Origin: Beroe forskalii
Lineage: Eukaryota; Ctenophora; Nuda; Beroida; Beroidae
Assembly: GCA_011033025.1 (NCBI GenBank)
Contig: WFMF01000062.1
Location: forward strand, 434,001 to 498,000
Reading direction: 5' to 3'
Length of the DNA stretch: 64,000 nt
A model generated the notes under the pieces. It was given only the letters and a program-made list of their open reading frames with translations, was not told the origin of the DNA and did not search any database. Made by a program: the position numbers and the translations under genes. The stretch's first letter is position 1. Every line of letters begins with the position of its first letter. Positions 20,503 to 62,743 of this stretch are shown piece after piece.

Positions 20503-21730
20503 TGTGCATGCACTTAAACACGTGTGAGCACTTTAATACATGTATGCACTTTAACACGTGCATGCACTTTAACACGTGCATGCACTTTAACACGTGCATG
20601 CACTTTAACACGTGCATGCACTTTAACACGTGCATGCACTTTAACACGTGCATGCACTTAAACACGTGCGAGCACTTTAACACGTGCATGCACTTAAACA
20701 CGTGTGAGCACTTTAATACATGTATGCACTTTAACACGTGCATGCACTTTAACACGTACATGCACTTTAACACGTGCATGCACTTTAACACGTGCATGCA
20801 CTTTAACACGTGCGTGCACTTTAACACGTGCATGCACTTTAACACGTGCATGCACTTTAACACGTGCATGCACTTTAGCACGTGCATGCACTTTAACACG
20901 TGCATGTACTTTAGCACGTGCACTTTAACACGTGCATGCACTTTAGCACGTGCACTTTAACACGTGCATGCACTTTAGCACGTGCATGCACTTTAACACG
21001 TGCATGTACTTTAGCACATGCACTTTAACACGTGCGAGCACTTTAACACGTGCATGCACTTTAACACGTGCGAGCACTTTAACACGTGCATGCAATTTAA
21101 CACATGCATGCACTTTAACACGTGCGAGCACTTTAACACGTGCATGCACTTTAACACGTGCGAGCACTTTAACACGTGCGAGCACTTTAACACGTGCATG
21201 CAATTTAACACATGCATGCACTTTAACACGTGCACTTTAACACGTGCGAGCACTTTAACACGTGCACTTTAACACGTGCGAGCACTTAAACACGCGAGCA
21301 CTTTAACACGTGCGAGCACTTTAACACGTGCATGCTTTTAACACGCATGCACTTCAACACGTGCATGCACTTTAACATGCATGCACTTTAACACGTGCAT
21401 GCACTTTAACACGCATGCACTTTAACACGTGCGAGCACTTTAACACGTGCGAGCACTTTAACACGTGCATGCAATTTAACACATGCATGCACTTTAACAC
21501 GTGCGAGCACTTTAACACGTGCATGCAATTTAACACGTGCATGCACTTCAACACGTGCATGCACTTTAACACGTGCATGCACTTTAACACGTGCATGCAC
21601 TTTAAAACGTGCATGCACTTTAACACGTGCATGCACTTTAACACGTACATGCACTTTAACACGTGCATGCACTTTAACACGTGCACTTTAACACATGCAC
21701 TTTAACACGTGCATGCACTTTAACACGAGC
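20503..21730. repeat. 18-bp satellite with an E-box in every unit
   Basis: About 65-70 tandem copies of CACTTTAACACGTGCATG. Each contains CACGTG (E-box palindrome) and most contain GCATGC. Variants are GTGCGAGCA, a shortened GTGCACTTTAACAC spacer, and CACATG. Because 18 is a multiple of 3 and the unit has no stop in several frames, long repetitive frames run through on both strands (for example 20,495-20,960). They are artefacts. It begins ~190 bases after the last recognised PKC exon. Confidence 0.95.
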
Positions 21731-22534
21731 ATGGACGACTAAACTATTAAAAAACGACTATTTAACAACAACTGAAGAAAGCGATGCAAAAGTGAAGTAT
21801 GTGCGGTGAGCAGCCCCTTATAAAGGTAACAGTTGACACCACTTTTCGTCAGGCAGCATTCCGCTACGTAGTATGTTTGACACCACTACGTCAGACATAC
21901 AATGCACGTTTCGTCACTACGTCACACTACGCGACTTTGACACCACTTCAAATCATGTACTGCTCTCTTATGAAGCATCGGCTGAGTGACGCCATAAAAT
22001 CTCTTAGTGCCGTAACTCTAAACGTGACCCAAACAAAGTTTAAACCTACCCTCAACTTAATAGGACCAGCAGATATTTGCCAATGTTCGTTATCATCATA
22101 GATAATGAAGATACTCGTGTTATATGGGAGACTACTGACTAGGAAGCATGGCAGTGACCAATCAGACCGACTATATTGGCGTTTGCAATGTAATTTCGCC
22201 TTTGGCACCTCTATGCAGTGCATCAGACAACACATCGATAGACACATACACTGAAAAGAAAGATATGTTTGAAGTAGTGACTCAAAAATCGCCAATCAGC
22301 ATCCGAATTCGATGCGTGGCGAAAATTATTCACGTAAATACGTTCACGCGCCCTTTTAGAAATTACGAAGAATGATAAACGACCTAACCCGCATCACATA
22401 TGAAGCCATGCGCGTTCCAAACATCTGTGTATCGGAGAAGAATTGTGGTACAAGAAATTGCCACACAGTTTTCAATTATTTCGCTCTTCAACTTTCAAGC
22501 CACTACATTTTCTGAATGTCTTGAGCATTGCTTA
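21731..22534. other. Gene-free spacer
   Basis: A short cluster of GACACCACTACGTCA words lies at 21,835-21,950. Open frames on both strands (21,799-22,375) show no recognisable motif. The missing last exon of RAB5IF, expected on the minus strand below 25,232, was not identified here. Confidence 0.4.
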
Positions 22535-32240: not shown

Positions 32241-35200
32241 CTACTTCAACTTGATCACCCCATCAGCAGTCTCAGCGTCGTATTTCAGAGAGAAGTTGAG
32301 TGATGCAACATTGCCCATAGTCAGCAGAACCTGAACAATGATTGGTAATGGGTCAACTTAATGATTGGTAATATCAACTTTATGATTGGCGATATTACCT
32401 TTGCAAATAAGAAAACAAGCTGAAAGCTATTACAGTTATCTAAGTATCAATGAGTTTGCATATTATCATGAGTTCGCATATTGACCCAAAGCAGCCACGA
32501 TCACCACAGCAGATCACACATTCTGCCGATACATGCAGAGCGTAATTAATTGCATTTTTCAAGTTCTATGGAAAGAGAAGGTTTAATTTTATTAGTTCAT
32601 CATAATGTGCCAGTATCATGATTAACAGTGTAAAAATATCATTGAGTCTCTCTGTTAAACTTTTACGCTACTTTTATAACAGGGTGTTGAAATGTTGATT
32701 AAGTCACTGAAATTAAGTCAGTCGTAAATTAGTGAATTAACTCATGATCTCAATAAAAAGTAACAGACAAGTTTAAAGTACATGGTTTAAGATACCGGCC
32801 GTGGTTATTAAATGTTGAGGAGAAAAACGATAAGTGGAAATAATGTTTTTTTATATAAGACCCACAGTACAGAAATGCTGTACTCTGCCGATAGTATACC
32901 TGTTGTATGGGGGAAGAGGGGCAGATGGGAGAGAAATGTTACCTGTTGTATGGGGAAGAGGGGCAGATGGGAGAGAAATGTTACCTGTTGTTTGGGGGAA
33001 GAGGGGCAGATGGGAGAGAAATGTTACCTGTTGTATGGGGGAAGAGGGGCAGATGGGAGAGAAATGTTACCTGTTGTTTGGGGGAAGAGGGGCAGATGGG
33101 AGAGAAATGTTACCTGTTGTTTGGGGGAAGAGGGGCAGATGGGAGAGAAATGTTACCTGTTGTATGGGGGAAGAGGGGCAGATGGGAGAGTAATGTAACC
33201 TGTTGTATGGGGGAAGAGGGGCAGATGGGAGAGAAATGTAACCTGTTGTATGGGGGAAGAGGGGCAGATGGAGAGAAATGTTACCTGTTGTATGGGGGAA
33301 GAGGGGCAGATGGGAGAGAAATGTTACCTGTTGTATGGGGGAAGAGGGGCAGATGGGAGAGAAGGGAGACAGACTCTTGCAGGAAGCGTTTGCTAACTTG
33401 AACTTGCCGTCCCCAACACTGGAGATGGTGAGCGAGACGTCCTGGGAGACGTGGAGGTTTTATACATGAGGCAATCCAATTAAAGTGCTTTAAAATTAGA
33501 ATCTTTAGGTAATCAGCAACTCTTGTGGGGCATTATTGACTCCTGAGTTTTTTATGTAAATTTCAGTATTTTATAAGAATGAGTGGAGAGATGAGAACTG
33601 CAAAATAAAGAAATCACTACACAAGTTAGTAACACGAGTTCATGTCTCTCACGTCAAAGCGAGCAGTAGATGAGTTGGAGATAGTGAGGAGCCAGACAGC
33701 TACTTCCGGCTCGGGCTTGTTCTCCGTGTGGTACAAGTTCACCCTGACCCCCTCACTGCTGTCAAACACCAGGACGGGGGGTAGAGTGGAGGGGCGGATC
33801 AGGGTCAGGGGCACGTCCACGTCTTGGAGGATGTCTCGGGGAGGGGGTTCAGGGGCTCGGTGCAGCGAGGGGGAGGACACGGGGGTCGTGGAGATGGGCG
33901 TGGTAGAGCGGGGAGATGTAGAGACACCCTTAGTTCTGGGGAGAGTGGGGTTAGAGCGGGGAGATGTAGAAACACCCGAAAGGAGAGCGGGGTCAGAGTA
34001 GGAAGATGTAGACTGTAGAGACAACCTTAGTACTGCTATGGGAGAGAGGCCCATATCCAAAAAGCTGCGAACCTGCAAACCTGGTTCGGAGGAAATTTTG
34101 AGACGGAGGAAATTTTTGGGGAAAACGGAGGAAATTCTCGGCGGAAAATTTTATTTTCTGTGCTCTTTTTTACCCGAATTGCATTCGAATGAATCAATAA
34201 ATGAAATTTCAAATCATTCCTGTACTAACTAACAGTTTTCAGTGATAAGAATTAGGATGTATAAACCGTATCAGAAAGATATTCAATATGTGGAATGTGC
34301 AAAAACGTGCCTGCGTGCACACAATCTGAGTCGGCATTTTCAGAGGCATCATCCCTCCATGTGAGCACCTTCTCAGGGAGAACAAATTAAATTGATTCAG
34401 ATGCGAAAAACCTTGAAAATTTTTGCCTTTGACAGGCTATTGACAGGCTATTGTCAGGAATAATTTCAGAAACAGTTTCAGATGTAAGACTTTCAAATTT
34501 TTGCCTGTGACGGGATATTGTACTTGTAATCAATCCAATTATAACTAACATTAAGTTTACCAAACTCATAATTCATATTCAATAAAACGAAATTTTTGTA
34601 AAACCTTAAATATATTAGAGAATGTCACTTGAATAGACTTAGAGGTAAAAAGGTTCAAATTGCGGCTTCGCTAGAATCAAATTCCTGAATTGATCCAGTC
34701 TCAGAGGTAAAACAGGTTCCAGAATTTTTTCGCCTGCGGCGCGCTATTGTGAATTGTGATCAAATTATGTTGCTGAATTGATCCTATAAGTCTCAGAGGT
34801 AAAACAGGTTCCAAATTTTCGCCTGCGGCGGGCTGTTGTGATCAAATAATGTAACTGAATATTGATCCTAGACAGTCTCAGAGGTATAAAACCTTCCAAA
34901 TTTTCGCCTGTGGTGGGCTGTTGTTATCAATTTATGCTATTAAATTGGCCAAAGACACAGTGTTAGTCTTAGACATGTAAAACTTTCGAAAATTTTGCCT
35001 GGACAGTGTCAGTAGGATTCGAAATCAAAAGTCTACATGGAATTTACTGACTGTTCGTGATATTGCAAGTTTATCAAAATAATTATTTTGCTTAATAACA
35101 ATCATTGAAGAAGCCAATTTTGAGGCACGTTTGCTTCGCTGGCAAAATGGAATCAATTTCAAAAGCAAAGCAAGTAGACAGCGAAATAGGCAAAAGTTTT

Positions 35201-38200
35201 GTGAGTGAAGCAAGTAGGCTGCAAAATGGGCAAAAATTTCTGGTTCGGAGGAAATTTTTCATTTTTTGGATATGGGGAGAGAGGGGTAGAGATGGGAGAT
35301 GCAGTGATGCCCTTAGTAGGAGGGCAGTGGGGGTAGTTTTAACTTTTTAATGAGAAAAGAGAGAATATGTAAATGCGATGTACATGAAACACAAATACTT
35401 GAATACGCATGAATAGGTATGATAATTTTTAATACATTATACATGATGTAACCAGCAAAACTTAAGATATATTAGAGGTTGTCACTTGGCTAGGAACACT
35501 GAGATAGGTTCGTAGGCTTCGGTTTCGGAGTGTTGTTAAACTTAGCACCAGACAGATCCGGTATTAAGAGATCAAATGAATCTAAACCCGCGTCCGAACT
35601 AGCGACTTCATCCTGAGGAGGGATATTCTCATAAGTATGGGATGTTCTCAAAACACTAGGTATGATGTTTTACCATCGAATGAAATAATTTTATTTCTAA
35701 GCGAAGGAGACCGGGATGAATAAAATAATGCCTAATCACTGTTTATATACCTGAGGAGGGGTCACGGTAGGTTGGAACACTGAGATAGGTTCCAGCAAGC
35801 CACCCAACTCGTCTCCGCCACTACGCGAATCCAGCAGATTGAAGCCGCTGCTAGCACCAGAAGGCTGGCTAGGCGAGGAGAACAAATCGTCGAGAAGAGA
35901 TCCGGCGTTTGATGTGCTGGGAGCTGGGGCCTGCGTTGAGAGGTGGGTTGATTGGTTCAGTGAATTCTAGAGTACGTAAACTACAAATTCAAGGGAGTAC
36001 TGATTGAATGTCTTTTGGAAGCGTGAGCTATGAACATTCAACAGGATAGAAAACAGAAAATAGTAGAATTTGGTTGTCCATCGACTATTTCAGCAATTTA
36101 CCTGCGTAGGTTGAGATGTTGTAACGCTGCCAAGAGATAACAACCCGAAGGGGTCGCTCAAATCACCACTACTATTTGTTTGAGCAGTAGGTTGAGTAGC
36201 AGGCTGGGTAGCTGGTATAGTGGCTGGTAGGGCGGATGTTAGAGACGTTGGCGGCACCACGGCAGGCGAAGGTGGCTGAACAGTCATCCCACCGAACAGT
36301 CCGGAAGACACAGTCTCCACCGAGCCGTTGGTGGTGGTGAGGGGGGTGGCTGTCGTTATGTTCGGAGTGGCGATGGTGGCAGTGGGCGGCGAAGTGACCT
36401 GGGTGGGGTTGCTGCTGCCGCCAAGGGAGACTGAGGACAGGAAGTCATCGAAGTCATCTGCTGACAAGGTTTCAGTGGCAGCTGGGATGGTGCCAACTTC
36501 TTCTTCCAAGTTGATGAGACTTGTGCTTTCTGTATCAACCGGAGCTGAACGGTTTGGTATATATAGGAAATGAGGGACTTTAGCAAAATGTTATGGAATT
36601 CAAAAGAGTTAGCAAATTGTAACAAAATCACTTTATAAATAGGTACAGCTCCTGTCATAATAAGAAGACTCGTGAGTCGTACCGAAGTTTACACCGGCAC
36701 ATTACGTTGATATTTCTAAGTATCAAGAGAAGGAGTCGCGTACCTTGTGGGGTGGTATTGGAGGCGGACCCCTGCAAGTCCGGGGGTTGGTATGCAGTGA
36801 TTTGGGGCGGCGCCCCCTTTCCCCCACGTAGCTCGTACTGCTCAATGGCTTTGTTCAACGTCTCGCCGGCATCCACCACAGACGATAGCTGGGCACTGAA
36901 TCGATCTTTTATTAGCGATGAAAACTCATTTCTTTGAATTGTGACATGATGACATACTTCATGATGAAGGATGGTAAAAATTTAAAATTAGGATAAGGTA
37001 CTGCAATTTAATGTTCAACTTTGATAGGCATTGTATAAAATCAAATAAATTACACTATCCAATATGGCTGACCTGTCTGACAATTGACCAGCAAGTCGGT
37101 ACAGCTTGGGTCTCAGATCCACGCAAGTCTTGTGGAGTTCGTCTAACAAGGCCGTTTCTTCCTTAGTGTGATCGGAGCTGGACAGCATCTCGGCGAGGAG
37201 TCGACCGTTGTTGTGGATCATTGCCACCTGGCTCAGCATTTCCATGTCTTGCTCCGCCTTCCGGCCTTCTGCTGCCACCATATCCTGGGAATTGCACATG
37301 AAATGAATAGCATCCAGTGAAAATCTCTCTGAGTTGATCTGAATACAAATTTCAAGTAGGTAATTGTACTGTATTTTTACTCCCACATTAGTAAAATCCG
37401 GTACCATCAAGCCTTCACAAAATACAGCCAAGTATCTTGTTGTCAATTGTGCAGTAAATTATATCTATCACACAGCATGCACACATTTTGTTGTGTGTAC
37501 ATTTCATGATGCATTGTATACAGCATCCACTACTAAACTGCGTGTATTGGGAGTACCGACTACCGAGCATATACTGACCTTGATCATTTTATTTGCAGTT
37601 TCAAGATCCTGCTTGTTTTTGCTTTTCAGAAGGGAAGCTAACAGGGCTGCCTTTGCAGCATCTTCTCCAGCAGCATAAGCAAACTCAGTCTTCTTGACAA
37701 TCTGAAATATGATGATATATGAAGATCATTGCAGTGCGATTAACTTCACAACGGAACACTGAGGTGTCATGTGCACTATTCCAGATATCTGCTTCCCGCT
37801 GTGTCAGCAATACTGATCCATTTGTCTAACTACTATCTCCATACGTACCTTTTAGAAATTTGATTTCATATATATTCTATTTTAAATAATGTCTCAGTGA
37901 AGTGACAATACCAAACTACATGTAAACAGTATCAAATCTGTATCTTAGTATTTCCAGTCTTTTCCAGCATGTTATATGCTTCTAATATCTTTGGCTGATC
38001 TTTGTATGCTACTGCCCATAACTTAAGTTGCTGCACAATTGCACTCCTAACTGCCGTTGGAGTTTGGTTTCCAGCATACTGCAAGAACAATTACTAATCA
38101 TTTAATCAAAATAAAAGAACACATTTTTTTGATCCAACATCAGATTAAACTGGCCGATAGGTGTATCTGGTATTAAACACAAATTTGATCACATGAGAGG

Positions 38201-40499: not shown

Positions 40500-40599
40500 N
40501 NNNNNNNNNNNNNNNNNNNNNNNNNNNNNNNNNNNNNNNNNNNNNNNNNNNNNNNNNNNNNNNNNNNNNNNNNNNNNNNNNNNNNNNNNNNNNNNNNNN
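40500..40599. other. Scaffold gap (100 N)
   Basis: Exactly 100 undetermined bases, the conventional placeholder for a gap of unknown size. The true distance and order of the left and right parts are not proven by this sequence. Confidence 0.98.
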
Positions 40600-43313: not shown

Positions 43314-44834
43314 TATAATAATAATAATAATAAAGCACACATTTATAACCCGCTTAACCATAATTAAGAAACTTAATTCTCTAGGCAACTAAGCGGTAAC
43401 TTTTTTAGAGGCATTCCACAGCCTTTGAGATCCTATAAAGAAGCATATTCTAAATCTAAACAGTATTTTCAATCCCAACATATATTTTAAGATGATCATT
43501 TAATAGCAAATTAAAATTCGAGTTCAATATTGTAAGTTGTACTATTCACATCCTCTGCAAATGCACGTTTGAAGAAATGAGTTTTAAGAGCTATTTTGAA
43601 AGCTTCAATATCTGACATTGAGCGTAATCTATAAGGAAGATTGTTCCATATCTGGGGAGCTGACAAACTGAATGCACCAGTGGTCTTAACGCATCGTGGC
43701 AGTGGTGGATGATTAAGGAGGTAAAAGTCATTATCAGCTCTAACAGAATGACAGTTAGTTTTCCGCAATGATAGCAGTTTTGAGAGATAGCCTGGAGCAA
43801 TGTTATTGATGCATTTGAAAGCCAGCAGTGCTATTTTGTATTTGATCCTAAATACAACAGGAAGAAAATGGAGCTCCTTAAGGAATGGTGTCATATGCTG
43901 AAATCTCTCTTGCCTTTCAGACCAAATACATATTTCACTGCAGCATTCTGAATTTTTTGTAGCTTTCCAATTGGGTCTGAGTTAAGCAAAATATGTACTG
44001 TTGCAGTTATCCATAAATGTGTGGATCATACATGCATGGACTAGCTGTATTTTCAACTCTTTTGTTGTTTACTCCCAATTTTACCAATTTTTCAGTTTTT
44101 GTCTGTGAAACTTTTTTGATCTGAGATTCGAGCAATAAGTTCATCAAACCAATAACCTAAGTTCTTAGCTTCAACTGAAGGTATTATCTCACATTGATTG
44201 AATGAAAATGACTGCTGTGGTGGATAAGGGGAAAAAGGTGAATAAAACTCCATCATTTCTGTCTTTTCGTCATTCATTTTTAGGTAATTCTTGTCATCCA
44301 GGATTTTATGTCATTGAAACATTGCTGAAGGTCACTGAATTTTCTTGTTACCCCAGCAGTGGGGGTAAATTCAAAATAAATCTGGGTGTCATCTGCATAG
44401 AGATGAATTGAGAAGTTGTACTTTAGTGCTAGAGACTGAAGACCCTTTGTATAGAGGATGAAGAGCAAGGGACCCAGAATTGATCCTTGGGGTACTCCAA
44501 TTTCAAGTGTTGCTTCATCAGATACAGACCCATTGATATTTACCTTGAATGAACGTCCAGATAGATATGACTTCAGCCAGTCAATAATGACACCTTTGAA
44601 ATGGTACACATTTTCTAGTCTTTTGATGAGGTATTGATGATTGACTGTGTCAAATGCTGCTGACAAGTCCAGCAGCATAAGACAAACATGATTTTGCTTA
44701 TCCATAGCAATAAGGACATCATTGTGTATCTTAATGACAGCTGTTTCACAACTATGATCTTTCCTATACCCAGACTGCAGCTGAGGAAAAAGACCTTGGT
44801 TTGTTATATGTTCAACCATTTGCAAATGAACACA
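43314..44834 (-). mobile_element. CR1/L2-type LINE, 5'-truncated ORF2 fragment
   Basis: On the minus strand the frame 44,825-44,280 carries non-LTR reverse transcriptase motifs: LQSGYRKDHSCETAV, LLDLSAAFDTVNH, WLKSYLSGR, GVPQGSILGPLLFILYT and YADDTQIYF. The frame 43,894-43,511 is the ORF2 C-terminus typical of CR1/L2 (LHFLPVVFRIKYKIALL, APGYLS, IWNNLPYRLR). The two parts are in different frames, so the copy is broken. The 3' end is a short (TAA)n/(TTA)n tail at 43,314-43,333. The empty site is at ~2,165 in copy A, where six bases (GATGCC) are missing from the filled site. No clear target duplication was seen. Confidence 0.9.
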
Positions 44835-47344
44835 TTGTACTTGTCGATATGCACGGCCCTCTTTTGCACTTCCTCTGTCGAGCCATTGCTTTGTGATATT
44901 GTGATAAATATCGTTTTCATACTATCCATTATATACCTACTCATATAATTTTAGCATATAAAATATATAAATAAATATATAAATTAACAGTTTGCTCTTT
45001 CCTTTATACCAAAAATCGTCAATCAATCGATATATCATTTTATCATGCCCTGTGGGTAGCTGGAAATTGGGATTAATCCAACTCACATTGGATAATTTTA
45101 TTGTTGTGAAGGTGTTATTTCTTGATGCCATTATATGCATAACCCAAATTATTACTTTGCGTCTGTCGAGCCATGTTTAAACTTTTAAACATTGTACTAC
45201 TAATGTGATATTGTGATGGATAACGTGTCCTAAGTTTCTATGTAATCAATGTCAGTTTGCTCTTTCCTTACAAACCATCATTCGTGTATAATTTTATCTG
45301 CCATGCTAGGATTAATTGTACCCTGACTTTCACTCGATAGTTTTGACTCGATAGCATTATTTCGCGATATTTTGTACATACTACTGTACATACCTTTACC
45401 CAAAATATCACACTCGAGCCATGTTTTTACATTGAATTGCTTTATGTGATCATATTGCGATAGATATCCTTATCAGTTTGCTCTTTCTTACCTATCTATA
45501 CCATCAATATATCAATAATCGAGCTATCATTTTACCATGCCATATTGTACGAGTAGCTGGGATTAATTCAACCCTGACTTTCAGTTAACACTCAACAGTT
45601 TTGTCCTTTTTATCATTTGGTGTTATGGTGTGCGTCAAACGAACTTGCCGAAAATATCACGCCATGCGACAGCGCAGCTTGAGACATTTAAATGATTCAT
45701 CTTGCGAGGCGAAGCTGAGCACTCTAAATCATTTCTGCAGTGAGGTTGAGCGTCTAAAATATTACCCTTTTGGCTTTTATTTAACCGGCCCTTAAGTACA
45801 AAAATGACTTTGAGTTTTTTGTCCAAAGGGCCGGTTAAAAAAGGCCGGTTAAAGTGGGGCCGGTCAAATTAAAGGCCAATTAATTTAGGTCAAATGAAAC
45901 TTTTATGACTTGCCTTATACAGTGTTAAATTGTCTTGAATGGCATTATGTAACACCTAAAGCATCATATCAGACCGGAATTTGGGTCTTTTGGCGCAATT
46001 TATTAAGTATAAATGGGTTTTAATGACCATTTTAGAGCATAAAATCCTTGATCTGGTGACCACTATGAAAAATTTGTCCAAGGGGCCGGCTAAAAGGGTT
46101 CGAAAATGATTCAATTTTTGTCTATAGGGCCGGTTAAAAAAGGGCCGGTTAAAAAAGGCCGGCTAAATAAAGGCCAATAAGGTATAGTAAAACGGACCAA
46201 GAAAAACTTTCATTTTCGAGCTTTTAAAGTTATCGTTTTTTGTTTTTTTGACCAAAAACTTTTTTTATGACCAAAAACTGTTTTTTGGTCATTACTCCGC
46301 TTCTGGAGCTCAAGATCTAAACTTCACTTATATGAGATGTTTCATTAAGCTCTAAATATCCTGTTACCTACACAAACATTATCTACCTTAGGAGGTGTAT
46401 TTATATGGGATTTTCTCAATCATTACTCTTGTTGATATATGATAATGACGTCATTTGAAATGCCATGGTGTTTGAAAGAATGGGGATTTTTATGAAAAAT
46501 CTCCAAATTACAACCTTTATAAATAAACCTCCTAAGTTACCTACACATAATATACCTACACACAGTCTGTATTGTGGAATTTTAGTTGTTTATGCTAACC
46601 CTTTCATTTTGTGACAGTGTCGGTATGTACTATGTAATCTTGTAATATCGAGTCACATAGCGAATATAAGTGTGAATTTACATACCTATTACCTAACGAA
46701 AAAGTGTGAAGTGGAATTGGAATTGGGAATATATTTCACAGCACAATCACAATGTCAATATATATTTTAAACATTTTCATATATGAAGAACCGTCTTGGT
46801 TGTGCTAAGGGACAGCACTTAGTCAATCATGAAGACTGTTGGCAAGGCCAAGGCCACCCACTTAAGCACTTAAGGGAATAAAAATATATACAGAAAATGG
46901 AACAAATGGGGCTCAAAAAGTGAATGCAGACTGGGACAAATGAGACAGAGAAGAATGGGACTCTAACAGTGAATTGGGACAGGGAAAAATGGAACATTTG
47001 GGAAAATTGGGACAAAAGTGACAGAGACAACTGGGGCTAAAATTATTGTGTTTCTGAGTTTCTGAGCAGCAGAGTGTTTTTTGTCTAACAGCCTGTTACA
47101 TAGCGGCACTGCAAACAAACACAATCAAATTTACTTTAGTATAGTACAGTAGTATGAATATAACTTGGATCAATGTGAAAAATGATAATTGACTGATTTT
47201 TTCGACTTTATGTTTGTCCCAATTGTCCGAAATGTCCATTGTCCAAGTTGCCCCAATTGTCCCAAGAACCAGTCCCAGAAGTAAATTGGGACGGGATCAC
47301 AATTGGGGCAGTGGCACTCCACTCATTATTTACCGAAGTCTAAC

Positions 47345-56515: not shown

Positions 56516-56741
56516 ATATGTTAACTTTTGAGCTTAAAAGCAGACATAAAATTCAAAAATTGAAATTCTCTAGACTACTTTTGGATCAATTCTTGACCAA
56601 GTTTACAAGACAAAGTTTAATGGCCTTTTCCTGCTTGAGCCTGTTTTTCACTTGGTTAATGATTGTTCAATGATTTAACAATGCAAAATTTCTCTTTCAG
56701 TACTTTTCAATCCTTCTCATATCATTTTCAGTTAGGGCTAT

Positions 56742-59048
56742 ATGGAATATCATGATACTCAAAGTAAAGATGCTAGAAAATATTTGTCTGCTCATCATAT
56801 ACCTGAAGCTATTGAGGCATCATTAACTGCAGCAGCTATTTATAGACCAGCTAACCCTTTGCTAACTATCTTAAGAGATCTTAAACGAGTCAAGAGTGGT
56901 GACTTTGATGGCCTTTTATCCTGGGATACCTTCATAGATGAATCTGATCTGCCTGTAGAAAGAGTTTTCAAACCATGCTTTATTGTAGCACACATATTTG
57001 ATAACCCTTTTGTGAGGGAAAAATATCATCAGCAGATGAAGAGGGCAATAGAACACTACTCTAGAGTCAAATTGAAAAAGTATTTCCATATGCTTAAAGT
57101 TTTTCATAAACACAGGATTGCTAAGAAAGTCATCGACAGAAAAAATACCAATAAAGCCACCAGCCATTTTAACAGTAAAATGAGAAAACGCTGTTTGTCT
57201 GTTTGGATTAACCACTCACAAGTTTATAAAGCTAATGTTGCTAGAGCTATTGATCTGCTGCTGAAATCTATATCTTACTCTTACTTGTTAAAGTGCTTTA
57301 CTTACTGGAGACTATTCACCAAGGATATTCATTGGAAAAACAACTATTTTCAAAAGCAAGCATTGAGACAATCAAATGAAAATAATTCAAATTCACTTCA
57401 TGATGCTGATGATAATATACAAGATGTTGATTATATATCACGACTCCCATCAAGTATTGCTACAAAAATTTTCAAGTTCTTAGATCTTAAAAGTAGAATT
57501 GCATGTTCAATGGTATGTAATTCATGGCATGCCCTTTTGCAAGATTGTGCATTATACACTGAACTTGATTTAACTAACTCAGGATTCAAAATAAATGATA
57601 GTCTGTTTCATAACATTTTAAGGAGGTATAAATTCTTTTTGTATCATATCAAACTTGAAAGTTGTAATCAATTATCTCCCAAAAGTCTGGTAAATCTCAA
57701 AGAGTGTCGCAATTTACAAGATGTAGACTTAACTGGCTGTCAAGTAAAGGCACCGTTATTTCAAGAATTGGGAACTGGTTGCCCTTTTATCACATATCTT
57801 AATTTGTCATATTGCAATGTTGATGATTCCTGTTTTGCACACATAGCAAAAAATTTCCCCTCACTGAAGTACCTCGATTTATCTTACTGTGTATTATTAA
57901 CAGAAGCTGGGTTCTATTACCTTGTAACTAATAAATCACTGAGAAATTTAGCACACCTAAACTTATCTGGCTGTAAAATAAATGGAAACTGTCTTGCAGA
58001 TATTGGGCAGTGTTGCCAGTTTTTGACTTCATTCATTTTGGACTTTATCCCAGCTTTAACTGATGAATGTATTTCCAAATTAGCTGCTACATGCTTTCGT
58101 TTAAGGATTTTATCACTTATACAAGCTGTCAAAATTACTGATAAAGCACTCAAATTTATTTCATCCAACTTAACACAACTTGAAAAAATCTTCATTGAAG
58201 GAAATAAGCTCATTACAGACTCTGGAGTTGCAAGTGTCATGGGATTAAGAAATCTGAAGCAAATTCACATTGTTGATTGTCTGAGATTATATGATACTGG
58301 TTTGAAACCTTGTACAAATTTGAGAATGTTATCAGTCCTTAATTTTACTGACTGTATTAGACTAACTGATAGAGGTATAAAGCACGTTCTTGCCAGCCCC
58401 TCTGCATTCCATATTCAGGAACTTTCTCTAACCAATTGTATTCGTGTTGGTGACCATACTGTACAAAAAATTGTGAACTGCTGTCCCAACTTGACCTACC
58501 TCTCTGTTGCTTATTGTGAAAATATTACAGACGTGGGTGTAGTTATGCTTGCACATCATCCTAAGCTACACACCCTTGACATATCAGGTTGTTCAATAGA
58601 TGATTATGGTGTGGGATCATTAAGGCAGGCCCAGAATCTTGTGAATCTATCAATGGCAGAATGTAATCTTGTGACAGATATTGGCATAGAACGAATGTCC
58701 AAAGTTGAAAATGTCAAATGTCTCAATTTGTCCTTCTGTACTAATTTATCAGATTATGGAATGAAAATGCTCATTTTTGAGAGGAAGTGTTTGACACATC
58801 TTAATATTGGTGGATGTAAGCTCATAACCAATGGTACACTAAGCAGCATAGCAAGTGTCTGTGATTATCTCCTGAAACTTAATATTTCTGAAAATAAAAA
58901 TATTACTGATAAGGGTATTAGACTCATCCGCAATGGCTGTAAAAAGCTAAGTTACCTCAATGTTTCATACTGTCCAAAGATAACTTATGAAAGTATTGCA
59001 AAACTAATTCAAAATAATTGTAAAGTTATTCATACTATGAATGTATAA
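56742..59048 (+). CDS. FBXL13: FBXL13/DRC6-like F-box and leucine-rich-repeat protein
   Basis: 768 residues in one open frame; human FBXL13 has ~735. FBXL13 is subunit 6 of the nexin-dynein regulatory complex of motile cilia. Residues ~8-45 (ARKYLSAHHIPEAIEASLTA) resemble the RIIa/DPY-30 dimerisation fold common in axonemal proteins. 100-205 is basic and helical with Trp-containing IQ-like segments. 231-275 is the F-box (SRLPSSIATKIFKFLDLKSR, VCNSWHAL). From ~277 to the end about 17 Cys-type leucine-rich repeats follow (LxxLNLSxCxxITDxGxxxL), for example LSVAYCENITDVGVVML. The ATG lies 13 bases after a 3' splice-like TTTTCAG, so a 5' non-coding exon is possible. Vertebrate FBXL13 has many introns; their absence here is unusual. 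An AATAAA at 59,393 could serve its 3' end. SYCP1 follows 0.53 kb later. Confidence 0.9.
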   Translation: MEYHDTQSKDARKYLSAHHIPEAIEASLTAAAIYRPANPLLTILRDLKRVKSGDFDGLLSWDTFIDESDLPVERVFKPCFIVAHIFDNPFVREKYHQQMKRAIEHYSRVKLKKYFHMLKVFHKHRIAKKVIDRKNTNKATSHFNSKMRKRCLSVWINHSQVYKANVARAIDLLLKSISYSYLLKCFTYWRLFTKDIHWKNNYFQKQALRQSNENNSNSLHDADDNIQDVDYISRLPSSIATKIFKFLDLKSRIACSMVCNSWHALLQDCALYTELDLTNSGFKINDSLFHNILRRYKFFLYHIKLESCNQLSPKSLVNLKECRNLQDVDLTGCQVKAPLFQELGTGCPFITYLNLSYCNVDDSCFAHIAKNFPSLKYLDLSYCVLLTEAGFYYLVTNKSLRNLAHLNLSGCKINGNCLADIGQCCQFLTSFILDFIPALTDECISKLAATCFRLRILSLIQAVKITDKALKFISSNLTQLEKIFIEGNKLITDSGVASVMGLRNLKQIHIVDCLRLYDTGLKPCTNLRMLSVLNFTDCIRLTDRGIKHVLASPSAFHIQELSLTNCIRVGDHTVQKIVNCCPNLTYLSVAYCENITDVGVVMLAHHPKLHTLDISGCSIDDYGVGSLRQAQNLVNLSMAECNLVTDIGIERMSKVENVKCLNLSFCTNLSDYGMKMLIFERKCLTHLNIGGCKLITNGTLSSIASVCDYLLKLNISENKNITDKGIRLIRNGCKKLSYLNVSYCPKITYESIAKLIQNNCKVIHTMNV

Positions 59049-59581
59049 CAATTTTGCAGTTGACATATAAGCAAAATTGATATCTAATTGTTCTCATTGA
59101 AATTTTAACAGTTTTTATGAAATATGTATCTATCTAGTACTTCTTGATTTTAAATTCTGGCATAGGTATTATATGAATCCTCAGGTATTGATTTAAAATG
59201 ATTATGCAATATGCAGTGGCTGTCAATTATTGGCAATTAGCACACATACAGCTGATACGAATAAGGGTAACCTGATTTTGCGAAATTAATACTTCATGAT
59301 CAGATCAAACATATAGATTGAGCTTGAATGAAATTTCATGATATTATTATGATAATGACCAGAGCATAATGATTACCCAGTGTCTCGTTAATAATAAATT
59401 GTTTATTTTAGCTTCATACAGTAGCTGTAGGTATATCAATCAAACTTGTTTATTAATCATTATCATAAACTTCTTCCAATATTTGAAAAAAAACATCTCA
59501 AACTACATTATACTATTTCAATATTATATCATGTATACAAATACTCAAATACATGGTAGTAAATGTTTAACTTTGCAGGGC

Positions 59582-62500
59582 ATGTTGCAACAAAGACAAA
59601 GGTCACAGGTTCAACAAAATGAGACAGAAATATCTAATGTAAACATGACAGCTATACACTGTAAACTTCAAGAAGAAGCTGAGAAAATCCGAAAGTGGCA
59701 AACCAGTTCTGACATTGAGCTGAAGCAAAAAGTGACCAAATTGAAAGAATGTGAGCAACTGATCAGTAAGCAGCGAAATCATGTTTTGGAGCTGCAAGTT
59801 GAAAATGAATCACTGTCAACAAAGCTTCAAAAAGAACAATTCCATCAGGCTCAAATAAACTTGAAACTCAAAACATCTCGAGAATTATTCATTGCTCTCA
59901 AAAACCACTCTGAGAATCTCCAAGCATCCATTATTAGGGGGGAGGAAGACAGGGATTCACTAAGGATGCTTGCTGCAGAGAATATCAAGCAGATCAAAGA
60001 ATTGAAGCTCTCTATTCAAGAAATAAATGATACAAATGATAAACAAGTATTGGTGTTGAAGTCATGTATAAAAGACAGAGAGATGGTTCATGATGAACTT
60101 AAGTTCAAATTTGAAAAAGAAATGGAAGATGCTACCAAATGCAGTAGAGCTCTTGAAACTGATTTGAAGAAATGCAAGGGAACTGTTGATGATTTATCTA
60201 GACGACTTCTTGAAGAACAGGGCTATGTTTCCTTAAATGAAAATAAAATCAAAAAACTTGAAGAAGACTTAAGAGAACAAGAAAAATTGACTGCATCAAA
60301 AATATCTGCATTAGCTGAGCTGCAGGCTTCATTTGATCTTGTTGACTCATCCTTCAAATCAGCTCAGGCTGAAAAAACAATGGCACAGAAAGAAAATCTC
60401 AAACTGAATGATGAATTTGAAACTTATAAAACTGATGCAGAAAATGAAATAGAAAATTTGCAAGCTGATCAAGCTAAACTGACCGATTCCTTGACAAACT
60501 TGTCCACTCAGTTCAATGAGATAACATCAGCACATGACCGACTTAGTGATGAGAACAAGTCTATGAAGGAGAGTATCTCACAGTTGGTGAAATGTATTGA
60601 GGAATTGCAAGAAAAGCAGGAAGAAAATGAGCAAGAAATCATCCAACTCAATAACACATGCAGTGCATCAACCAAAAAAGAAATTGAATTGAGGTCTATT
60701 ATTCAAGAGAAAGATGATCAATTTCAATGTCTCAAATCGGCTAAAGAAGACGTGGAAGCTCAGTTGAAAGTTAAATGTCATGATGTTGCCAAGCAAAAAG
60801 ACCAAGAGGAGAATTACTGCCATAAGATTGAGCAATTAGAGTCATCAATTATTGAATACAAGGAAAGTTTAGAAAAATCCACTGAAAATTATTCTGATAT
60901 TGATAAAGTATCAAAAAAGTTACTTTTTGATCTTGAACAAAAAAATTCTGAATGTAATGAATATGAAACTAAATTAAATGAATATGAAAAACGTTTCAAA
61001 ATTGCAGAAACCTCTTTAAATGAAAAAGAAAGTCAAATGAATGAATTGGCTTCTTCTAATAATTTACTTAAGAAACAAATTGATCAGTATTCAAATGAAC
61101 TCAAATCCTGGGAATCAAAGTTATTTGATCTTAACTGTGATTATAAGTCACTCACTGATGAACATAACTCTTGTTGTTCACAACTAGAATCAGTGAGGAC
61201 TTGTATAGAAGCCAAAAACAAGGAAATAGCCAAACAAGATTCTCAGTTTAAGAAATTAAAAAAGGAATGTGAAGTCACTAGAAAGGAAGTTAAGGTTCTC
61301 TCCAACAGTAATAAGAGTCTAGAGAAAAATTTGTTATGTGCTAGAGATTCAGAGGAAAAGGCTACTGCAGCTGCTAAACAGAAGTCATTGCTATGTCAAA
61401 GTCTCAAAGATGCAAATTCAGATTTGGAGAAAAGAGTTTCAAAACTTAAAAATGATCTTAGTTCAGCTGAGGATGGATCATCAGATTTATCCAAAAGATT
61501 GTCCTCGGAGTTACAAGATGCTTCCTTGGAGTTACTTGCAAAGAACAGTATCATAGAAAAGCTCAGGGAGGATATGTTGAATCTTCAAAATGAGTTTAAT
61601 GCATCTGTCAAGGAATTGAAGTCAAAAAACGAAGCCCTGGATGAGAACAACAAACAACTGAATTCATCCATATCTCATAAAAATGCAGATATTTCTGCCC
61701 TAGCTGAAGAAATTAACAAATTGCAGAATAAGATATGTAAACTTGAGGAAATTAATCAACAATCAAAAATGAATATGTCTTCTGAGGTTAATTCATATGA
61801 AAAAGAAATTGAAAACTTAGGATTAATCAAAGATGACCTAACCAAGAAAGTATCAGCTTGTGAAATTGAAAAGAATACCCTAATCACTGAAATTTCATCA
61901 ATAAAAAAAGAAAAATCAGTGATTGAAAAAGAAAATAGTGATCTTAAGTCAAGAAGTACTATACTATTGTCAGAAAAATCACAATTTGAAATGGATATAA
62001 CTAAGTTGAAGGCCCAGGTTGCTGATGTTTTATCTGAAAATACTGAATTTAAAAAGGCAGGTCAATCATTAAAAGATAAAGAGGACCAAGTAAAACATTT
62101 GAAACAAAGTTTAGATGAGGTTAAATCTGATTTCCTTCTCTCAGAAGAGAAATACATTTCAACCATTGATAAACTAAAAGAAGAAATCAAGAAGTTAAAT
62201 AAAAATAAAGTCAATGCTGTGCTATCAACCGTTGCTTCCAAATCGCCATGTGCTAAGAAAGCTTCAGACACCTCATATTTGAGTCCCAAGCAAAGTGACA
62301 GAAATGTCAATCCTGAATCTCCAAAAACACCATCAGTGGGTAGATCTAAAAAGAGGCGTGTAGCATTTGGCAAGTCACCTTCATGGAGTTCTAAATCTGA
62401 TGATGAATTTGATAATGTTGAAGAAGAAGACACAACTGTTTCAAGTTCAACAGGGAACAATTTGAATAAAGTTCGAAATTTGACCTTATCAAAATCTCCA

Positions 62501-62743
62501 AAATTGACCACATTTTCTTCAAGTAAATCTCCTTCAAGACTTAAATTAGGAAAATCACCAAAGCCAGTCAATGAACTTCTAGCCAAGTATCCAACACCCT
62601 CTAATAGTGAAAAACGAGGGATAAAACTACCAGATGCTTATGTAAAACGAAAAGAAGAAAGTATTAAAAAAAGACAGAAGATTAAGCTAGAGACATGTTC
62701 TTGGTTTGATACTGAATCAGCTTTTGGATTTGATGAAAAATGA
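59582..62743 (+). CDS. SYCP1: Synaptonemal complex protein 1 (SYCP1) homologue
   Basis: Transverse filament protein that zips homologous chromosomes in meiotic prophase. From ATG at 59,582, 1,053 residues (human SYCP1 976). Near the N-terminus, LQEEAEKIRKWQTSSDIELK and ISKQRNHVLELQVENESL match the conserved SYCP1 motif (human YKEAEKIKKWKVSTEAELRQ). A continuous coiled coil of ~850 residues follows. The basic, Ser/Thr-Pro-rich tail has SPKTPSVGRSKKRRVAFGKS, like human KKRKMAFEFD, then acidic DDEFDNVEEEDTT and TPSNSEKRGIKLPDAY. The open frame extends upstream to 59,369, but that part is hydrophobic and unlike SYCP1. A good acceptor (AACTTTGCAG) ends at 59,578, so I start at the next ATG; short upstream exons may be missing. 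Apparently intron-free over 3.1 kb. Confidence 0.92.
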   Translation: MLQQRQRSQVQQNETEISNVNMTAIHCKLQEEAEKIRKWQTSSDIELKQKVTKLKECEQLISKQRNHVLELQVENESLSTKLQKEQFHQAQINLKLKTSRELFIALKNHSENLQASIIRGEEDRDSLRMLAAENIKQIKELKLSIQEINDTNDKQVLVLKSCIKDREMVHDELKFKFEKEMEDATKCSRALETDLKKCKGTVDDLSRRLLEEQGYVSLNENKIKKLEEDLREQEKLTASKISALAELQASFDLVDSSFKSAQAEKTMAQKENLKLNDEFETYKTDAENEIENLQADQAKLTDSLTNLSTQFNEITSAHDRLSDENKSMKESISQLVKCIEELQEKQEENEQEIIQLNNTCSASTKKEIELRSIIQEKDDQFQCLKSAKEDVEAQLKVKCHDVAKQKDQEENYCHKIEQLESSIIEYKESLEKSTENYSDIDKVSKKLLFDLEQKNSECNEYETKLNEYEKRFKIAETSLNEKESQMNELASSNNLLKKQIDQYSNELKSWESKLFDLNCDYKSLTDEHNSCCSQLESVRTCIEAKNKEIAKQDSQFKKLKKECEVTRKEVKVLSNSNKSLEKNLLCARDSEEKATAAAKQKSLLCQSLKDANSDLEKRVSKLKNDLSSAEDGSSDLSKRLSSELQDASLELLAKNSIIEKLREDMLNLQNEFNASVKELKSKNEALDENNKQLNSSISHKNADISALAEEINKLQNKICKLEEINQQSKMNMSSEVNSYEKEIENLGLIKDDLTKKVSACEIEKNTLITEISSIKKEKSVIEKENSDLKSRSTILLSEKSQFEMDITKLKAQVADVLSENTEFKKAGQSLKDKEDQVKHLKQSLDEVKSDFLLSEEKYISTIDKLKEEIKKLNKNKVNAVLSTVASKSPCAKKASDTSYLSPKQSDRNVNPESPKTPSVGRSKKRRVAFGKSPSWSSKSDDEFDNVEEEDTTVSSSTGNNLNKVRNLTLSKSPKLTTFSSSKSPSRLKLGKSPKPVNELLAKYPTPSNSEKRGIKLPDAYVKRKEESIKKRQKIKLETCSWFDTESAFGFDEK

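Follow-up and report, generated by a model that had tools for sequence, protein, structure and literature searches.

The number of tandem repeats in intron 7 of the human F7 gene affects factor VII levels, an effect that is not counted as evidence here. According to the excerpted account of this intron, the repeats are 37 bp long, highly alike and variable in number, and the genuine 5' splice site lies in the first of them; in the normal state only this most upstream donor is used, a behaviour described as 'oriented scanning', and a mutation at position +5 of the donor leads to exon skipping and to the use of downstream cryptic donors, neither product of which encodes a functional protein (PMC6627357). 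New introns are likewise known to arise by tandem duplication of AG/GT segments, with examples from fission yeast, potato and ATP2A1 in the excerpted literature (PMC4974935, PMC3629103). Ratchet points in Drosophila, again as excerpted, consist of AG/GT followed by an RS-exon of ~50 nt with its own donor, and sit in long introns (PMC8605326).

A minisatellite in the terminal intron of a GGA gene of Beroe forskalii, located in the 64,000-nucleotide stretch of DNA analysed here (the window), resembles what the excerpts describe for F7 intron 7: highly alike tandem repeats that begin at an exon-intron boundary, a 5' splice site in each repeat, and the genuine or, in this case, homology-supported site in the first. 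It differs from F7 in the gene concerned and in the length of the unit, which is 43 or 42 nt instead of 37 bp. Based on this comparison, F7 intron 7 is the closest precedent, and the GGA array is assigned to the F7 type by its anatomy, as judged from sequence and homology only. On present evidence the GGA array does not amount to a new mechanism. The reading we favour, and consider reasonably probable, is that the minisatellite arose by tandem duplication of the exon-intron boundary, that the donor at the exon edge is the one normally used, and that the ten further copies leave with the intron.

The GGA gene and the array at its last donor

The minus strand from ~38973 to 32241 carries a GGA gene (membrane traffic), in which VHS, GAT and GAE (ear) domains follow each other in this order. 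Pfam matches for VHS (90.4 bits), GGA_N-GAT (41.2 bits) and GAT (39.0 bits) all exceed their own cut-offs; the ear reached 19.7 and 20.5 bits with Alpha_adaptinC2, under the curated cut-off of 27.6, and this C-terminal ear matched the solved ear domains of GGA3 (PDB 1p4u, E 3.7e-09) and GGA1 (1na8, E 1.2e-05). The gene model of 12 exons was built by hand, and the donors of E3 and E9 and the acceptor of E6, all outside the array region, are provisional; its shortest intron measures 138 nt. The penultimate exon E11 (33328-33441, minus strand, 114 nt) is bounded by the acceptor CTCCCAG and the donor CAACAG/GTAACA, encodes DVSLTISSVGDGKFKLANASCKSLSPFSPICPSSPIQQ, and is placed by its frame and by homology to the GGA3 and GGA1 ears. 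It is followed on the same strand by the terminal intron (32331-33327, 997 nt) and by the last exon E12 (32241-32330), which encodes VLLTMGNVASLNFSLKYDAETADGVIKLK and the stop.

Smaller repeats were seen elsewhere in the gene. The start of E10 (33889-34035) holds degenerate in-frame coding repeats (GVSTSPRS) at spacings of 48 and 42 nt, and these copies enclose a second acceptor-like CTCTCCCCAG at 33945-33936. The sequence GAACCTATCTCAGTGTTCC is found twice, within E8 (35774-35792) and just past the modelled end of E9 (35493-35511), as a small intragenic duplication. A degenerate 21-bp tandem array of ~2.4 copies (32337-32402) starts 7 bases from the acceptor end of E12 and includes, on the gene strand, the branch-like motifs TTGAT and TTGAC; together with the 43-bp array at the donor end, it places tandem repeats at both ends of the terminal intron.

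The existence of a minisatellite at the GGA 5' splice site, reported in an earlier note on this DNA, was confirmed by TRF (32897-33363, period 43, 10.9 copies, 97% matches, score 878) and by a 34-base junction pattern, which with up to three mismatches matched ten times in the window, always within the array or at its exon edge, and never in 100 shuffles. Nine of these matches were exact and the one at the last donor had three mismatches, while the eleventh junction, a 33-base version due to the deletion in unit U9, escaped the pattern because it allows no gaps. The ten intronic units (32900-33327, minus strand) consist of GTWACAT and a 36-nt copy of the exon end, and every one of them ends in CAACAG with GT directly after. 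On the minus strand the exon ends at 33328 and the units then end at 33285, 33243, 33200, 33157, 33114, 33071, 33028, 32985, 32943 and 32900. The unit length of 43 bp given earlier is thus right for eight units and wrong for U2 and U9, which have 42 nt. Compared with their consensus, the units show 8 differences in 430 aligned positions, including two single-base deletions.

This arrangement yields eleven donor-like sites, D0 to D10 (32894-33327, minus strand), of which D0 is the homology-supported one and ten are intronic; their first intronic bases are 33327, 33284, 33242, 33199, 33156, 33113, 33070, 33027, 32984, 32942 and 32899. As had been stated, the ten further donors lie within the first ~430 bases of a ~1-kb intron (428 of 997 nt). 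They had been described as GTAACA or GTTACA, which fits 8 and 2 of the 11 sites; the last reads GTATAC. Variants are common to near neighbours, with GTTACA in U3 and U4 and AAA for ATA in U5, U6 and U8, and these shared variants fit local duplication or exchange, a turnover that would also keep the copies alike. The copy number is that of one assembly, in which a run of N occurs at 40500-40599, ~7 kb off.

The exonic repeat copy (33328-33363, minus strand, 36 nt) is an exact match to the array consensus and encodes the 12 codons FSPICPSSPIQQ; the SPIQQ earlier ascribed to the exon-edge unit is included, but the full copy is longer. In the alignment FSPICPSSPIQQ faces FSPIQPPAAITQ of GGA3 with 7 of 12 residues identical, a level of at least seven that was reached in 2 of 100000 base shuffles, and the 36 copied nucleotides correspond to coding sequence common to the ear domains of GGA1 and GGA3. 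Once only these 12 repeat-derived residues are removed, the score of the ear stretch against GGA3 1p4u falls from 40.0 bits (D0 join) to 19.5, and no match to Pfam Alpha_adaptinC2 is left. Because these 36 nt code for part of a conserved protein domain, we regard the exonic copy as the original and those in the intron as its descendants. Homology thus argues strongly for exon-to-intron as the most likely direction of copying, and upholds the earlier suggestion that the array grew from a copied exon-intron boundary. The duplicated segment would comprise 36 coding nt of the GGA ear (GAE) exon and ~7 intronic nt, of which ten further copies are observed in the intron.

As RNA, the array and exon form a less stable fold than shuffled versions do (z +2.59; 20 of 20 shuffles at least as stable), and no mechanism based on structure is proposed for this reason. 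On the plus strand, DNA hairpins over 173 nt were unremarkable (z 0.25), and G-quadruplex motifs were absent from the array with loops of 1-7 and numbered 52, all overlapping, when loops of up to 25 were allowed. Open frames run through the array on the plus strand, as expected of a stop-free repeat, and no other support for them was seen. Outside the array, the sequence most similar to the unit lies in the E9-E10 intron (35299-35247), is rich in pyrimidines and has a local score of 33; with scores of up to 31 in 15 simulated windows, this match is marginal and was not counted as a further unit. The unit pattern had no exact matches in viral contigs or in bacterial and archaeal contigs, a result of little weight as these collections are not for eukaryote genomes.

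Donor choice and its products

Joining D0 to E12 extends the ear alignment, with SPIQQ-VLL facing AITQ-VML or -VLL. When the same ear stretch is compared with 1p4u, the form made with D0 scores 40.0 bits, that with D4 36.3 and that with D1 36.0; the corresponding E values for Pfam Alpha_adaptinC2 are 0.00058 (20.5 bits), 0.0028 and 0.0071. Protein homology therefore mildly favours D0 over D1 and D4, the margin being only ~4 bits, and it supports an end of E11 at 33328, the position proposed in the earlier note. D0 is an ordinary donor for the GGA gene: its U1 pairing amounts to -8.0 kcal/mol compared with -4.7 to -8.4 for eight other donors of the model, and its frequency score to 3.09 compared with 1.11 to 5.40. 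The nine donor bases of D1 and D4-D9 are identical to those of D0, so that donor sequence alone gives no reason for the choice of D0. By analogy with F7 intron 7, the exon-edge D0 would most likely be chosen, joining the conserved ear straight to the last exon, and this donor probably dominates, to the point of serving in nearly all cases. The ten copies would then be spliced out with the intron and would be mostly silent, whether they are removed in one step or, again silently, in several.

Leakage to D1-D10 is predicted to give frameshifted or stop-containing mRNAs and a GGA with a damaged ear, with one exception. Use of D1, D2 or D5 shifts the frame by +1 and leads to a product ending in ...GSADYGQCCITQLLSEIRR, and use of D3 or D6 shifts it by +2, so that translation ends 7 nt inside E12. 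The exception is D4, which adds 171 nt (57 residues) free of stops and keeps the frame because U2 has 42 nt. The claim that any neighbouring donor shifts the frame consequently stands for D1, D2, D3, D5 and D6 and fails for D4. Similarly, longer inclusion was said to meet a TAA, and the TAA of the array (33067-33069, minus strand, read-through frame) is met from the four farthest donors D7, D8, D9 and D10 only, at 42, 85, 127 and 170 nt ahead of the junction. Of 55 possible contiguous inclusions of units, three keep the C-terminus of the ear.

The earlier note had proposed true competition among the donors, with the length of the array determining what fraction of GGA is correctly spliced and bears the ear. 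This would be consistent with the identical 9-mers at D0, D1 and D4-D9 and with the frameshift or stop that results from D1-D3 and D5-D10, but D4 keeps the frame, and strong competition does not agree with the parallel of F7, for which the excerpts describe use of the upstream donor only in the normal state (PMC6627357). We regard true competition as unlikely; regulation by array length is possible.

Acceptor-like units, possible stepwise removal and the origin of the intron

The pyrimidine-rich stretch had been noticed earlier; in addition, each unit is acceptor-like, since it is pyrimidine-rich and ends in CAG. At positions -24 to -5, the AGs of the units have pyrimidine fractions of 0.75-0.80 and occupy the top 10 places among 21 YAG sites of the intron, the next site reaching 0.70; the modelled acceptor of E12 has 0.60 and ten modelled GGA acceptors (E12 included, E6 left out) range from 0.50 to 0.70. 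The tracts of the units are rich in C, with T fractions of 0.20-0.25 compared with 0.15-0.50 in the modelled acceptors, and six to seven non-tract bases separate them from the AG. The branch motif yUnAy is found in 0 of 11 units as against 9 of 10 modelled acceptors, and the looser nURAy in 8 of 11 units. All ten intronic units show the layout of a ratchet point, that is a pyrimidine tract and AG with a donor directly after, although the tract is C-rich.

A splice from D0 to the AG at the end of a unit would do no harm. Since GT comes directly after the AG and the two sides were both copied from one boundary, a donor derived from D0 would be recreated as a logical consequence of the repeat; and because the junctions are all AG/GT, any junction-to-junction splice inside the array would restore a copy of the same donor. 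Counting removal in a single step, 14 silent paths would be available at a minimum step of 138 nt, the length of the shortest modelled intron, and 89 at 60 nt. Perhaps, then, the units act as tandem ratchet points, with D0 spliced to an internal AG and the regenerated donor spliced onward, always resulting in normal mRNA. The adjoining AG/GT and the distance of 42-43 nt to the next donor resemble the AG/GT and the ~50-nt RS-exons of Drosophila ratchet points as excerpted (PMC8605326), and the AGs of the units are the most pyrimidine-rich of the intron. However, the Drosophila ratchet points of these excerpts sit in long introns (PMC8605326), whereas the GGA array is tandem and ten-fold, lies in a short intron of just 997 nt, and has C-rich tracts set back from the AG and a weak branch motif. 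Together these features make tandem ratchet points improbable. Equally speculative is a splice-neutral minisatellite, whose length would be free to change, whose removal as a whole or stepwise (tandem recursive splicing) would leave the mRNA unchanged, and which would exchange sequence with 12 conserved ear codons. A narrow literature search for recursive splicing, ratchet points, zero-length exons and tandem repeats in combination gave no report, and was too narrow for such arrays to be called unreported.

Alternatively, the array could be the remnant of an intron born by tandem duplication of an AG/GT coding segment (Rogers model). The AG/GT in the unit and the exon-derived tandem copies with splice-like junctions inside the intron are in line with the excerpted cases from fission yeast, potato and ATP2A1 (PMC4974935, PMC3629103). 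This kind of intron gain is defined by a donor and an acceptor that both lie in copies of the duplicated segment; in the GGA intron the 5' end does so but the 3' end does not, as the modelled acceptor ATTGTTCAG/GTTCTG of E12 has no counterpart in a unit. In addition, the spacer GTWACAT is unlike the E12 start GTTCTGC past its first bases, and beyond the array the intron runs on for 569 nt of other sequence. The Rogers model is weakly rejected on these grounds and is very unlikely to apply. That the intron-proximal D9 or D10 is the main donor, with the homology-supported exon end a minor one and most transcripts unproductive, is just as hard to credit, for although an intron-proximal preference is also known at duplicated 5' splice sites, D7-D10 run into a stop 42-170 nt ahead of the junction and the C-terminus of the ear is lost.

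Other features of the window and significance

Several further features were noted in the window. An uninterrupted frame of 769 aa (56739-59045) with an F-box and leucine-rich repeats is FBXL-like; it is intronless near a gene with many introns and is possibly a retrocopy. A second uninterrupted frame of 1072 aa (59525-62740) is coiled-coil-like and has a borderline match to SCP-1 (23.4 bits, cut-off 23). A reverse transcriptase fragment (RVT_1, 88.1 bits) at 44280-44921 presumably belongs to a retroelement. At 20504-21733 there is an 18-bp array of ~70 copies (GTGCATGCACTTTAACAC), the unit of which holds the palindrome GTGCATGCAC.

The array in the terminal intron of GGA is a natural test of how the spliceosome chooses among many near-identical 5' splice sites, and one in which a conserved protein domain suggests the right answer. 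If its copy number varies in the population, the accuracy of splicing could be measured directly against the number of repeats. More generally, the end of a coding exon can join a repeat array, and this array may exchange sequence with the exon.
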